Shown: positions 14,204-23,563 of the stretch, one piece after another
Layout: each line of letters starts with the position of its first letter
Numbering within the stretch: position 1 is the first letter of the stretch
DNA from: an uncultured Pelagibacteraceae bacterium
GTDB lineage: Bacteria > Pseudomonadota > Alphaproteobacteria > Pelagibacterales > Pelagibacteraceae
NCBI GenBank assembly: GCA_902612235.1
Contig: CACMCJ010000006.1
Location: 1-64,000 of the forward strand
Length of the DNA stretch: 64,000 nucleotides
Direction: 5' to 3'
Translations under genes and position numbers: made by a program
The notes under the pieces: generated by a model
The model's database searches: none
What the model was told of the DNA's origin: nothing
Seen by the model: the letters and a program-made list of their open reading frames with translations, nothing else

Positions 14204-15000
14204 ATATTATCAATTAATCTAACTTTTCCTAAATGATAAGACACAAAAATATTTGTGTTTGTATTTAACTTCAAACCTTTTCTAAAAGATTCAACATTAT
14301 AAATTTCTAAATAATCAATTTTATTAACCCCAAATCTAAGTATTTTTCTTTTTAAAATATTTAAATTAAGTTTTGACTTTTTTTTAATTTTAAATAAAAA
14401 TTTATATACTTGTGAAGCAATTCTTAGTTGTTTTTTATTTAATCTTTTATTTCTTGATGAGCATGCTACACCATTAATTTCTCGTATAGTTTTACAAGCG
14501 ATAACTTTTGTTTTAATTTTTCTTTTTTGAATATGTTTTTTTATTAAATAAAGCTGTTGAAAATCTTTCTTCCCTAAGTAAATTCTTTTTGGATTTAATA
14601 TTTCTAAAAATCTATTTACAACATCTAAAACTCCCTCAAAGTGACCTTTGCGAAATTGACCACATAATTTTTTTGAAACTTTATCTAAAAAGACACTTTT
14701 ATTGGGTTTAAAAGAAAAAATTTCTCTTTTGTTTGGGATATAAACAAAATTTACTTTAAGCCTTTTAAGTAAAATTAAATCGTTTTTAATATTTCTTGGG
14801 TAATTATTATAATCACTTTTTTTATTAAATTGTTTAGGATTTACAAATATCGTAACTAATGTTTTACCACCTATTTTTTTTGACTTTTTTATAAGAAATT
14901 CATGACCCTTATGTAAACTACCCATTGTTGGTACAAAGGATATATTTTTTTCATATAAAATCTCTTTTTGTAATTTTTGTTTACTTTTAAATATTTTCAT
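14200..15000 (-). CDS. panC: Pantothenate synthetase
   Basis: PanC condenses pantoate and beta-alanine using ATP to make pantothenate. I chose the ATG at 15000 (MKIFKSKQ). An in-frame upstream extension to 15054 would overlap galU and does not resemble the family. PTMGSLHKGH (residues 24-33) supplies the ATP-binding His pair, and GKKDFQQLYLIKK and SSRNKRLNKKQ are further family motifs. The 266 residues are slightly short but complete. panB is not nearby. Confidence 0.95.
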   Translation of the reverse strand: MKIFKSKQKLQKEILYEKNISFVPTMGSLHKGHEFLIKKSKKIGGKTLVTIFVNPKQFNKKSDYNNYPRNIKNDLILLKRLKVNFVYIPNKREIFSFKPNKSVFLDKVSKKLCGQFRKGHFEGVLDVVNRFLEILNPKRIYLGKKDFQQLYLIKKHIQKRKIKTKVIACKTIREINGVACSSRNKRLNKKQLRIASQVYKFLFKIKKKSKLNLNILKRKILRFGVNKIDYLEIYNVESFRKGLKLNTNTNIFVSYHLGKVRLIDNI

Positions 15001-15038
15001 TTCTTTATTGTAGTGATAATAACTATTATAAGAATCAT

Positions 15039-15857
15039 ATGATAAAACAAGCAATTATTCCATTAGCTGGATTAGGTACTCGAATGCTCCCTTTAACAAG
15101 TGTTTTGCCAAAAGAACTTTTGCCAATTAATGGCAAACCTAACTTAGAGTATATTCTTGAAGAGTGTTTAAACGCTGGTATTAAAGAATTTATATTTATT
15201 ATTTCAAAAAACAAATATTCTATTAAAAAGTATTTTTTTAATGATAGTTTTTACAAAAAAATTATAAAGAAAAAAAAGGACAAAAGAATTATTCAAGAAT
15301 ATAAAAAAATAAAAAAATATCAAAAAATGATTAAATTTGTATACCAAAATAGCCCTAAAGGTACGGGTGACGCAGTTTTAAAATGTCAAAAATTTATTAA
15401 AAGCAATTTTTTTTTAATACTTTTACCAGATGATCTTATTATTAATCAAAACTGCTCTAAAGAAATGATTAAGCTTCATAAAATTACAAAAGGATCAATA
15501 ATTGCAACTAAAAGAGTAAAAAGAAAAACTGTATCAAGATGGGGTATTTTATCTTTAAAAAATAAGAAGAAAAATTATTTTGAGATAAAAGATGTTGTAG
15601 AAAAACCTAACATCAAAAAAGCGCCATCAAATTTTGCAATTATTGGAAGATATATTTTAACTTCAAAAATTTTTGGAGAAATAAAAAAATTAAAACCAGG
15701 GCAAGGTAAAGAAATACATATTACAGATGCAATAAAAAGTTTAATACAAAAAAACAATAAATTTTACGGAAATATTTTCAAAGGTAAATATTTAGATTGT
15801 GGAACGTTAAAGGGATATATTGATTCAGGAGCTAAAATTAATAAAGGAAAAAAATGA
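15039..15857 (+). CDS. galU: UTP-glucose-1-phosphate uridylyltransferase
   Basis: GalU makes UDP-glucose from UTP and glucose-1-phosphate. The nucleotidyltransferase signature GLGTRMLP is at residues 11-18 and PKELLP at 24-29. LLPDD and VEKP (normal GalU motifs) are present in the middle, with KYLDCGTLKGY near the end. At 272 residues it is slightly shorter than average. It overlaps ugd by four bases, and the pair would make UDP-glucuronate for surface polysaccharide. Confidence 0.95.
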   Translation: MIKQAIIPLAGLGTRMLPLTSVLPKELLPINGKPNLEYILEECLNAGIKEFIFIISKNKYSIKKYFFNDSFYKKIIKKKKDKRIIQEYKKIKKYQKMIKFVYQNSPKGTGDAVLKCQKFIKSNFFLILLPDDLIINQNCSKEMIKLHKITKGSIIATKRVKRKTVSRWGILSLKNKKKNYFEIKDVVEKPNIKKAPSNFAIIGRYILTSKIFGEIKKLKPGQGKEIHITDAIKSLIQKNNKFYGNIFKGKYLDCGTLKGYIDSGAKINKGKK

Positions 15858-17158
15858 AATTATGTATGATAGGCACAGGATATGTTGGTCTAGTTAGCGG
15901 AACTTGTTTTGCTGATATAGGCAATCAAGTAATATGTGTTGATAAGGATTTAGATAAAATTAGCAAACTCAAAAGTGGAATATCTCCAATATATGAACCT
16001 GGATTAGATGAGTTAATTAAAAAAAATTATTCTGCAAAAAGACTATTTTTTACATCTAATATTAAACAAGCAATTAATTCCTCAGATATAATATTTATCT
16101 GTGTTGGCACACCTACAAAAAAAGGATCTCTTAAAGTTGATTTATCTTACGTATATAAATGTTGTAAAGAAATTTTAAAGTTTACTAAAAAAAAGAAAAT
16201 TCTTGTGACAAAATCTACGGTACCAGTTGGAACTGGTGATGAGATTGAAAAAATAATTAAAAAAAAGAAAAAATTGTTTACTGTAATATCCAATCCTGAA
16301 TTTTTGAGAGAAGGGGAAGCGATACGTGACTTCAGATATCCAGACAGAATAGTAATTGGTTCTAATGAGAAGAAAACTTTCAATACAATGAAAAAACTTT
16401 ATTCACCTCTCACTAATAAGGGTGCGAAATTTTTTACAACTTCAAGAAGAGGTGCTGAACTAATTAAATACGCATCTAATGCTTTTTTAGCTACTAAAAT
16501 TACATTCATTAATGAATTGGCAAATTTATGTGAGAAATCAGGTGTAAATATTGAGGATATCTCCTTAGGCATGGGTTCAGATAACAGAATTGGAGGTAGA
16601 TTCTTAAGAGCAGGGCCTGCTTACGGAGGGTCATGCTTCCCCAAAGATACAAAAGGTTTAGTTTTTGCAGCTGATAAACATAAAGTAAATCTTTCTGTTG
16701 TAAAATCTGTTATTAAATCAAATTTTAATCGAATTAATTTACTAACTAATAGAATTCATAAAATTTTAGGTTCAAGTTTAAAGAATAAAAAGATTTCTTT
16801 TTTAGGTGTAACATTTAAACCTAATACAGATGATATGAGAGATTCTACAAGTCTTAAAATGATTCCTTATTTAAGTAAAAAAGGAGCCTTAATAAATTAT
16901 TATGACCCCTCAGGTGAAAAGAAAGAATTTAGAAAAATTAAAAATTGTTTTTTTAAAAATAATATAAAAAATAATTGTTATAATGCTGATTTGGTTATTT
17001 TGCTTACAGAATGGGATGAATTTAAAACTATCGATTTTAAAAAAGTTATTAAAAATAAGAAGTTTAAAGTCTATGATTTAAGAAATCTATATAATGCTAA
17101 TGAAATGAAACGTAATAAAATCCAATATTTCTCAGTAGGAAGACCAAATATTAAATAA
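15854..17158 (+). CDS. ugd: UDP-glucose 6-dehydrogenase
   Basis: Ugd oxidises UDP-glucose to UDP-glucuronate with two NAD+. The Rossmann motif GTGYVG is at residues 7-12, NPEFLREGEAIRDF at 147-160, and GGSCFPKD at 258-265 carries the catalytic Cys261. GVTFKPNTDDMRDS lies in the C-terminal UDP-binding domain. The 434-residue length is normal. It is coupled to galU and ends in an 8-base overlap with the convergent RidA-like gene. Confidence 0.97.
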   Translation: MKLCMIGTGYVGLVSGTCFADIGNQVICVDKDLDKISKLKSGISPIYEPGLDELIKKNYSAKRLFFTSNIKQAINSSDIIFICVGTPTKKGSLKVDLSYVYKCCKEILKFTKKKKILVTKSTVPVGTGDEIEKIIKKKKKLFTVISNPEFLREGEAIRDFRYPDRIVIGSNEKKTFNTMKKLYSPLTNKGAKFFTTSRRGAELIKYASNAFLATKITFINELANLCEKSGVNIEDISLGMGSDNRIGGRFLRAGPAYGGSCFPKDTKGLVFAADKHKVNLSVVKSVIKSNFNRINLLTNRIHKILGSSLKNKKISFLGVTFKPNTDDMRDSTSLKMIPYLSKKGALINYYDPSGEKKEFRKIKNCFFKNNIKNNCYNADLVILLTEWDEFKTIDFKKVIKNKKFKVYDLRNLYNANEMKRNKIQYFSVGRPNIK

Positions 17159-20247: not shown

Positions 20248-20829
20248 TTATAACTTAATTTTATTTTCCTCTGAGTTTTTTAATCTCACTATATTTTCCC
20301 TATGTGTAAAAAGAATCATTACAAAGAAAATAAAAAGAACTAATAAAAAAGAATTATTTTCAAAAAAATATGAATAAAATAAAATAATTAATGATGAAAG
20401 CATTGATGATAAAGAAGCAAATCTAAAAAGCAATGATATTACAAGCCAACATATTCCAAAGACTAAGAAAAATTTATAAGAAAGAGCTAAAATCACTCCA
20501 AGATAAGTCGCGACACCTTTTCCTCCTTTAAACTTGAGCCAAACAGGAAATACATGACCGATAAAACAGCTTAATGCAGAATAGGAAGTTAAATTTTCAT
20601 AATATAATAAAGTTATAAATACAGATACGTAACCTTTTAATAAATCAAAAATAAGTGTAAAAAGTGCTAAATATTTTTTGCCAGTCCTCAGAACATTTGT
20701 CGTTCCAATATTGCCAGAGCCTAATTCTCTTATATCTTTCTTAAGAAATATTTTTGTTAAAACTAATCCAAAAGGGATTGAACCTAGTAAGTAAGAATAA
20801 GTTGCTACGATGAAAAAATTTGTTTCCAT
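20248..20829 (-). CDS. plsY: Glycerol-3-phosphate acyltransferase PlsY
   Basis: PlsY transfers acyl groups from acyl-phosphate to glycerol-3-phosphate in the inner membrane. The 193-residue protein has five membrane segments and the three family motifs: GSIPFG near the N-terminus, RELGSGNIGTTNVLRT (residues 35-50), and FKGGKGVATYLG. Its partner PlsX is encoded at 56022-57056. It overlaps the pyrC-like start by one base. Confidence 0.97.
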   Translation of the reverse strand: METNFFIVATYSYLLGSIPFGLVLTKIFLKKDIRELGSGNIGTTNVLRTGKKYLALFTLIFDLLKGYVSVFITLLYYENLTSYSALSCFIGHVFPVWLKFKGGKGVATYLGVILALSYKFFLVFGICWLVISLLFRFASLSSMLSSLIILFYSYFFENNSFLLVLFIFFVMILFTHRENIVRLKNSEENKIKL

Positions 20830-22118
20830 TAATCTGTATAAACTAGATCGCCATTTAAAAAAGTCATTTTAACTTTACCCTGAAGTTTCCTATTTTCAAA
20901 TGCTGTATTTTTTGATTTTGATTTTAAATTTTCAGGTTTTACTACCCAGGGTTTTTCCAAATCTAGGACGCAAAGATCAGCGTCTGCTCCAATTTTTAAA
21001 GTTCCTTTATTTATTTTAAGAATTTTTGCAGGATTGATTGTTAAGCACTTTATAATTTTGTCTAATGATAAAGAATTGTTATGATAGAGCTCTAAAGCAA
21101 GCGGGAGCAATGTTTCTACACCAATTGAACCAGTAGCTGCTTGTGCAAAAGGAAGTCTCTTACTTTCTTCATCTTCTGGTATATGATCAGAAACTATAAC
21201 ATCGATTAATTCATTCTTTAAACCTTCAACTAAAGAAAGCCGATTTTTTTCATCTCTAAGAGGCGGAGAAAGTTTTAAAAAGGTTCTAAACTCACCTATG
21301 TCATTTTCGTTAAGTGATAAATTGTTTATTGAAACTCCAGTCGTAAAACTAATACCATTAGACTTATTTTTTTTAATTACATCTAAAGATTTTTGTGTAG
21401 AAATTTGATTTATATGATATCTACAAGGAAACTTAGCAAGCAATGATAAATCTCTTTCAATTATGATTTTTTCGGCTATATCTGAAACACCTTGCAAGCC
21501 TAAACGTGTAGCTATTTCTCCCTCGTTTATACACGAGTTTTTTGATAATTCATAATCTTCTGCATGTTGCATTATCAGCACGTCTAAATCAGAAGCATAA
21601 TTCATTACTCGTGACATTAATTCTGTATTTTGAATAGTTTTATTTACATCACTAAAACCAATAATTCCTCTAGCTTTAAGTAGTCCAAATTCAGTCATTT
21701 GCTTCCCATTAGTTTGTTTGGTAATTGATGCGCAAGGAAATAAGTTAACTTTTGCTTTATCTCTACCTCTTCTAATTATAAAATCAACCATTGAAACATT
21801 ATCAATAACCGGTTTAGTGTTTGGCATAGTAACTATAGATGTTACCCCTCCAGCTAAAGCAGCTTGGCTTAAAGTTCTGAAATTTTCTTTATATTCGTAT
21901 CCAGGTTCACCAACGAAAGCTTTCATGTCGATAACACCAGGTATTACAAGATTCCCTTTTAAATCTATCTTTTCTGCAGATTTTGAGGCATCGGAAAGTT
22001 TAACTTTTTTTCCAATAGATTTAATCTTCCCTTTTTCATCAATTATTATGTTGCCTTGTTCATCAATTTTTTGAGATGGATCAATAATTCTACAATTTGT
22101 TAAAAATTTTTCATTCAT
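20829..22118 (-). CDS. pyrC: Dihydroorotase-like protein lacking metal ligands (PyrC')
   Basis: The 429-residue protein has the full dihydroorotase/amidohydrolase layout, but the HxH after IDM is replaced by K66-A67-F68. The usual PHH segment reads TGVSINNLSL, and TDHAPH reads SDHIPED. The first two changes remove the metal ligands. The pattern fits the non-catalytic PyrC' that forms a holoenzyme with aspartate carbamoyltransferase in Pseudomonas and many alphaproteobacteria. Its adjacency to pyrB, with no intervening base, supports that role. A catalytic dihydroorotase should then exist elsewhere. All other scaffold motifs are intact, so this is not a decaying gene. Confidence 0.9.
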   Translation of the reverse strand: MNEKFLTNCRIIDPSQKIDEQGNIIIDEKGKIKSIGKKVKLSDASKSAEKIDLKGNLVIPGVIDMKAFVGEPGYEYKENFRTLSQAALAGGVTSIVTMPNTKPVIDNVSMVDFIIRRGRDKAKVNLFPCASITKQTNGKQMTEFGLLKARGIIGFSDVNKTIQNTELMSRVMNYASDLDVLIMQHAEDYELSKNSCINEGEIATRLGLQGVSDIAEKIIIERDLSLLAKFPCRYHINQISTQKSLDVIKKNKSNGISFTTGVSINNLSLNENDIGEFRTFLKLSPPLRDEKNRLSLVEGLKNELIDVIVSDHIPEDEESKRLPFAQAATGSIGVETLLPLALELYHNNSLSLDKIIKCLTINPAKILKINKGTLKIGADADLCVLDLEKPWVVKPENLKSKSKNTAFENRKLQGKVKMTFLNGDLVYTD

Positions 22119-23063
22119 TTATTTACAATATAGTTTTAAGCAGGCCATTCTTACTGCAACTCCTAGTTCAACTTGTTCTTTGACTAAACTTACATTTATG
22201 TCGTCAGCTAATTTTGTATCTATTTCTACTCCTCTATTCATCGGACCTGGGTGCATGAGAAGAGCATCTTTCTTTGCATATTTGATTTTTTCCGGAGTAA
22301 GTCCAAAAAATTCATAATATTCTCTTTTTGATGGAAGAAATGATCCTTGCATTCTTTCATTTTGTAATCTTAACATCATGACAATATCACAACCATCTAA
22401 ACCTTTTTTCATATCAGTAAAGGATTTGACTCCAAGTTTATCAATCGAGACTGGCATTAAAGTTTTCGGAGCTATTACATTTACTTCAGCACCTAACATA
22501 TTCATTAAATATATATTTGATCTGGCAACTCTTGAATGAAGAATGTCACCACATATTGCAATTTTTAATCCTTCTATATTTCCTTTTCTATTAATTATTG
22601 TTAATGCATCTAATAATGCTTGGGTAGGATGTTCTCTTCTACCATCTCCTGCATTTATTACTGCACAATTAACTTTTTGTGAGAGTAAATTTGGTGCTCC
22701 TGAGTCTTGATGTCTTATGATAATTATATCTGGATGCATTGCATTTAATGTCATCGCTGTGTCAATTAATGTTTCACCTTTTTTGAGCGCTGAGTTAGCC
22801 ATATTCATAGACATTACATCAGCACCTAATCTCTTACCCGCCAAGTCAAATGAACTTTGTGTTCTTGTTGATGGTTCAAAAAATAAATTAATTTGTGTTT
22901 TTCCTCTTAATAAATCAAGCTTCTTAGAGCTACTCCTATTTAACTTTATAAAAGTTTTAGCTTCATTTAATATTTTCTTTGCTTCTAAAATTGAAAGATT
23001 TTGAATACCTAATAAGTGTTTGGCAGAATTTTTAATAGCTGAAACTTTTTTTATAGTTGCCAT
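22119..23063 (-). CDS. pyrB: Aspartate carbamoyltransferase catalytic subunit
   Basis: PyrB makes carbamoyl-aspartate, the first committed pyrimidine intermediate. I use the ATG at 23063 (MATIKK); a TTG three codons upstream is also in frame. The carbamoyl-phosphate loop FFEPSTRTQ (Ser65 to Thr68) and [11 protein letters not shown] are present, and [10 protein letters not shown] lies near the C-terminus. The 314 residues are normal. It directly precedes the PyrC'-like gene, consistent with a PyrB/PyrC' complex. Confidence 0.97.
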
Positions 23064-23092
23064 TAAAATCAACTCTATAGGCCTTTTAGTAC

Positions 23093-23101
23093 ATTATATC
23101 A
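23093..23101 (-). promoter_or_regulatory. Extended -10 promoter for pyrB-pyrC-plsY
   Basis: On the minus strand the sequence TGATATAAT (23101-23093) matches an extended -10 element, TGnTATAAT. It lies about 30 bases before the pyrB ATG and touches the last codon of ruvX. The -35 position (ATTATC) is weak, as is usual for extended -10 promoters. It would separate pyrB transcription from ruvX. Confidence 0.5.
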
Positions 23102-23563
23102 AGTATTTTTTTTATGATAATAGTCTAGGACTCCTTGAAGAATGAACTGTGCTGAATTCTCATCTAATTTCTTTACTTTTTTCGTTGAATTAACAGCTAA
23201 TTCTGTACTTAGATTAAAAGCACCTTGGCTTGACAATCTCTCATCCCACAAAGTGATATTTTTAGTAATATCTTTTGATAGATTAATAGCTAAATCTTTA
23301 GCTGACTGGGAAGAAGACCCCTCTGAACCATCCATATTAATTGGATTGCCTACAACTATCCCATCGATCTGATTTTCCACAATAATTTTCTTAATTCCAG
23401 AAAGTAATTCAGCGTAATTGTTTCTTATTAATGTTTTATAAGGAGTCGCTACAATTTTATTTTCATCCGATATAGCTATACCTACTCTTTTTTTACCAGG
23501 GTCAATACCCATTAATCGTGATTTTTTCTTAATTTTTTGAACAAATATTTCAATATCAAGCAT
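23099..23563 (-). CDS. ruvX: Putative pre-16S rRNA nuclease / Holliday junction resolvase-like RuvX
   Basis: This is a YqgF-family RNase H-fold protein, 154 residues. MGIDPGKKRVGIAIS (residues 18-32) has the first acidic residue, VVGNPINMDGSEG lies in the middle, and LWDERLSSQ and the C-terminal LDENSAQFILQGVLDYY complete the family pattern. About 17 residues precede the usual start. The family matures the 16S 5' end in E. coli. It is divergent from gatC with a 50-base gap. Confidence 0.93.
   Translation of the reverse strand: MLDIEIFVQKIKKKSRLMGIDPGKKRVGIAISDENKIVATPYKTLIRNNYAELLSGIKKIIVENQIDGIVVGNPINMDGSEGSSSQSAKDLAINLSKDITKNITLWDERLSSQGAFNLSTELAVNSTKKVKKLDENSAQFILQGVLDYYHKKNT

Follow-up and report, generated by a model that had tools for sequence, protein, structure and literature searches.

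A pyrB-adjacent dihydroorotase homologue without the alpha-zinc histidines in SAR11, a probable structural partner of PyrB

The protein encoded immediately downstream of pyrB in the window, a stretch of 64,000 nucleotides from an uncultured Pelagibacteraceae (SAR11) bacterium, is most probably a PyrX (also PyrC′ or pDHO), that is, a homologue of type-I dihydroorotase (DHOase) whose catalytic zinc site is lost and whose role is that of a structural partner of PyrB (probability about 0.93). The initial annotation had proposed a non-catalytic PyrC′ supporting PyrB, and this proposal is borne out by synteny, purifying selection, the lack of PyrI, a separate DHOase and published precedents. The PyrX/PyrC′ arrangement is already known, and the SAR11 copy is an ordinary PyrX and not a new system.

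The pyrB-pyrX locus and the residues of the former zinc site

The coordinates first given for the gene, 20829-22118, were correct, and the strand, which had been left unstated, is minus. The features of the locus are as follows.

20829..22118, minus strand: pyrX (pyrC′), pseudo-dihydroorotase of 429 aa with the alpha-metal-site histidines replaced (K66, F68)
21915..21923, minus strand: K66-A67-F68 codons at the site of the former HxH, placed by reading frame and Aquifex alignment
21321..21329, minus strand: I264-N265-N266 codons at the site of the former P-[NH]-H, placed likewise
22119..23072, minus strand: pyrB, aspartate carbamoyltransferase catalytic chain, above the NCBIfam cut-off
20248..20829, minus strand: ORF downstream of pyrX, from the ORF list
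23099..23563, minus strand: ORF upstream of pyrB, from the ORF list

The position right after pyrB, which had been noted from the outset, is preserved: the TAA stop of pyrB abuts the ATG of the downstream pyrX with zero bases between them (the junction reads TAAATG), and the pyrX stop codon shares a 1-base overlap with the start of the next ORF (20248..20829), which we take to be plsY (glycerol-3-phosphate acyltransferase). The ORF upstream of pyrB (23099..23563) is presumably ruvX/yqgF. A scan of the locus for promoters and terminators gave counts not above those of shuffled sequence.

PyrX scored 383 bits against TIGR00857 (pyrC_multi), above the cut-off of 279, and its best NCBIfam match, NF006558 (PRK09059.1, 'dihydroorotase'), reached 551 bits, short of the 645-bit cut-off. 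Among solved structures PyrX is closest to Aquifex aeolicus DHOase, both on its own and complexed with aspartate transcarbamoylase (ATCase), and aligned with it end to end (3d6n/1xrf, E 2.7e-89, residues 6-429 on 6-422). An AlphaFold2 prediction of PyrX with 24 SAR11 relatives had a mean pLDDT of 57, too low for use, probably owing to the shallow alignment.

The alpha zinc of Aquifex DHOase is reported to be held by His61, His63 and Asp153, and the enzyme to work with one zinc and to be inactive when metal-free; His180 and His232 of the beta site are dispensable there, and Asp305 lies nearby (PMC3880350). Residues 64-73 of PyrX read D-M-K66-A67-F68-V-G70-E-P-G, the corresponding motif of active DHOases being D-x-H-x-H-x-R-[DE]-P-G. 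Both alpha-zinc histidines are replaced (H61 to K66 and H63 to F68, Aquifex numbering first), as are one beta-site histidine (H232 to Q238) and, nearby, the REPG-motif Arg (RDPG in Aquifex, G70 in PyrX). Three of the six ligand positions in the Aquifex alignment are kept, namely D157 (Asp153), H185 (His180) and D311 (Asp305), and at the His61/His63/Asp153 triad expected of a catalytic type-I DHOase PyrX thus carries K66, F68 and D157. The reading frame and the Aquifex alignment confirmed the reading of HxH as K66-A67-F68 in the initial annotation, which had also counted the PHH segment, read as INN, among the lost metal ligands. Residues 264-266 are indeed I-N-N, but the PHH segment does not supply first-shell metal ligands. 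Even in the catalytically active Aquifex DHOase it reads P-N-H, so INN is weaker evidence than KAF. Q238, the His232 equivalent, had gone unnamed and is a real ligand position lost. With D157, H185 and D311 retained, the sequence of PyrX would still be compatible with a degenerate metal site.

A separate dihydroorotase in the same genome

Were PyrX the only copy in the genome, pyrimidine synthesis would need another enzyme for the DHOase step, as had been pointed out earlier. This concern does not apply, because the window's genome encodes two Amidohydro_1 proteins, PyrX and one on another contig.

Contig C5, about 14910-16226 (L001:1348-2661, G000:C5): second DHOase, PRK09060 match of 645.8 bits against a cut-off of 482

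The suggested search for a second amidohydrolase-type DHOase with intact HxH and Lys yielded such a protein and its lysine (in G-V-K-L-F), together with the His, His and Asp ligands, but not an intact HxH, which is replaced by Q-V-H. All 40 PRK09060 loci that were inspected, the C5 copy among them, carry QVH or QTH, as does the solved 2gwn, and one same-family genome has HVH at that site (L163). In G082 and G086, both rated 100% complete, a pyrB-adjacent QxH copy is the sole TIGR00857 match, so QxH is probably compatible with activity. The C5 protein is likely to be the genome's working dihydroorotase. Metal binding in this QxH type, with Gln for the first His, may deserve a look. DHO dehydrogenase is also present in the window's genome, and no PyrI regulatory chain was found in it (84% complete), which excludes class B.

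Conservation within SAR11 and across Alphaproteobacteria

All 80 SAR11 (Pelagibacteraceae) relatives, whose loci without exception bear Pelagibacter, Pelagibacteraceae or Pelagibacterales titles, have K at position 66 and F at position 68, so K66/F68 is no sequencing accident; G70 and D157 are unchanged in the same 80. H185, Q238, I264, N265, N266 and D311 are invariant in an alignment of 25 sequences (24 of the 80 relatives and the window's PyrX), in which mean column identity is 85% and a large share of the columns is invariant. In each of the 80 loci, tblastn coordinates place the end of the pyrB match 0-18 bases ahead of pyrX. The median pairwise dN/dS was 0.054 for pyrX (148 usable of the 150 closest pairs) and 0.034 for pyrB (146 usable of 150). 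Among family genomes at least 80% complete, PyrX was detected in 93 of 98 and the PRK09060 DHOase in 85 of 98 (E <= 1e-60), the corresponding figures for those at least 90% complete being 55 and 51 of 56. The missing matches plausibly reflect assembly incompleteness, though G286 and G308, which are 96-97% complete, are also without a PRK09060 DHOase match. PyrX is a conserved protein under purifying selection and no decaying gene.

A sample of 115 alphaproteobacterial genomes was surveyed, of which 83 matched NF006558 at E <= 1e-20 and the 79 with a strong match were examined. The four genomes dropped before this count (G034, G052, G089 and G100) had weak best matches, which in G034, G089 and G100 read as PRK09060-like. 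Both HxH histidines were present in 2 of the 79, the second alone in 8, the first alone in 5 and neither in 64, and the ligands were complete (H/Q, H, D, H, H, D) in 4 (two HxH and two QxH). A pyrB match was found in the flanks of 77 of the 79 homologues; loss of HxH among these homologues is near class-wide. Where ligands were missing, 72 of 75 genomes had a separate DHOase, scored as a PRK09060 or TIGR00856 match over cut-off, versus 1 of 4 where they were complete (Fisher p = 0.001, shared ancestry left uncorrected). The three exceptions with missing ligands and neither match over cut-off are G037, G097 and G098. In G097 PRK09060 gave a partial match of 419 bits; a TIGR00857 search found the PyrX copy alone in G037 (98% complete) and, in G098, two further matches beyond the PyrX copy, both below cut-off. 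G037 and G098 (L095, L128), with a ligand-less PyrX and no identifiable DHOase, are rated 98-99% complete.

The columns of 73 ligand-less copies, those of the SAR11 family being excluded, were ranked by variability. Columns 68, 238 and 311 rank high, being exceeded by 7, 29 and 33% of all columns, respectively, while E71, P72, G73, H235, H312 and P314 rank low, exceeded by 83-96%. The retained positions 157 and 185 are intermediate (79 and 74% of columns more variable), an argument against the pocket as a whole having been cleanly released. Taken together, the column pattern is that expected of a scaffold without catalysis.

A quick tree of 116 rows nested three alphaproteobacterial pyrB-linked copies whose ligand set, with HxH or QxH, is complete (L120, L129 and L142, from G059, G022 and G082) inside the ligand-less ones. 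Such nesting would imply reversion or many losses, but it was not supported by a clade test, in which keeping the ligand-less copies together gave the better tree (p-AU 0.965). The quick tree also sets PRK07627-type copies (L186-L193) apart from the alphaproteobacterial ones; ligand losses in the two may be independent, the tree being the product of a short search and not firm.

Known ATCase partners and alternative readings

The Pseudomonas PyrX/PyrC′/pDHO of class A2 ATCase, reportedly described by Schurr et al. in 1995, is like the SAR11 protein a pyrB-linked type-I DHOase homologue with its zinc ligands lost, and in both cases a separate active DHOase lies elsewhere in the genome (for SAR11, the C5 protein, presumed active). 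PRK07627-type copies from a phylum sample (L186-L193, all over the PRK07627 cut-off and presumably like that of Pseudomonas) have the Asp153 and His232 equivalents replaced and REPG kept, unlike SAR11 PyrX, which keeps the Asp153 equivalent and has G for R in REPG. The ATCase of P. aeruginosa is described as monomeric and inactive until pDHO joins it 1:1 in a dodecamer (PMC7053772). In Sinorhizobium (S.) meliloti, disruption of the pyrB-linked smc01361 is reported to cause pyrimidine auxotrophy even though the organism has an essential PyrC at another locus, and its product was proposed to be an inactive dihydroorotase, PyrX (PMC5929573). As described, this gene resembles the SAR11 one in being alphaproteobacterial and next to pyrB, and its host differs in having a large genome of several replicons. 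The DHOase of Aquifex aeolicus (1XRF, 3D6N, 4BJH), similar to PyrX over the full length and an ATCase partner in a dodecamer, differs in being catalytically active, of class A1 and with all ligands present. A review lists both active and inactive DHOases as ATCase partners (PMC4581275). No paper on both SAR11 and dihydroorotase was found in the literature collection searched.

Full-length homology, loss of zinc ligands, adjacency to pyrB, a separate DHOase and no PyrI all fit a PyrX of class A2 ATCase. On the model of the Pseudomonas and Aquifex complexes, PyrX and PyrB would form a class A2 aspartate transcarbamoylase of ~480 kDa with three PyrX dimers joining two PyrB trimers, in which PyrX would keep the PyrB trimer assembled and active and PyrB would depend on it. 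Carbamoyl aspartate from PyrB would then be cyclised by the separate PRK09060-type dihydroorotase encoded on contig C5.

The former active site might instead have been reused for effector binding that regulates PyrB, with the emptied pocket (K66, F68 and Q238 plus D157, H185 and D311) of SAR11, for which PyrI was not found, as the effector site and PyrX both regulatory and structural. We regard this as improbable. Inhibition of the P. aeruginosa ATCase-pDHO by nucleotides (PMC7053772) points that way, as does the invariance of the pocket residues within SAR11, but the latter weighs little since so many of all columns are invariant at this depth, and across Alphaproteobacteria the former ligand columns 68, 238 and 311 belong to the more variable part of the alignment. 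Less likely again is that PyrX is still a catalytic DHOase, using a rearranged or single-metal site on D157, H185 and D311. Half of the ligand positions are kept, the one-zinc Aquifex enzyme tolerates loss of both beta-site histidines (PMC3880350), and a P. aeruginosa PyrC paralogue described as lacking the conserved zinc ligands was reported active (PMC2770081, which also uses the name PyrC′), so that some residual activity is compatible with the PyrX sequence. However, the sole Aquifex zinc sits on His61, His63 and Asp153, and PyrX is without both histidines and the Arg (G70); moreover, the C5 protein carries a DHOase ligand set, and the ligand columns are variable across alphaproteobacterial homologues. 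We infer from these replacements that PyrX is catalytically inactive.

Loss of catalytic residues could also mark a decaying pseudogene on its way out, a reading to which we give almost no credence, as the gene has an open reading frame, K66 and F68 are fixed throughout the 80 relatives, dN/dS is about 0.05 and the gene is kept in 93 of the 98 family genomes. Strong purifying selection on a full-length pseudoenzyme in a genome as streamlined as that of SAR11 speaks for an obligate structural role.

The family model NF006558 (PRK09059.1) is an 'equivalog' named dihydroorotase, and both class-sample genomes that score over its cut-off are without the zinc ligands (R-x-F, Q and S/G at these positions), so the name is misleading. 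Through such automatic naming, SAR11 metabolic models could assign the DHOase reaction to the wrong gene.
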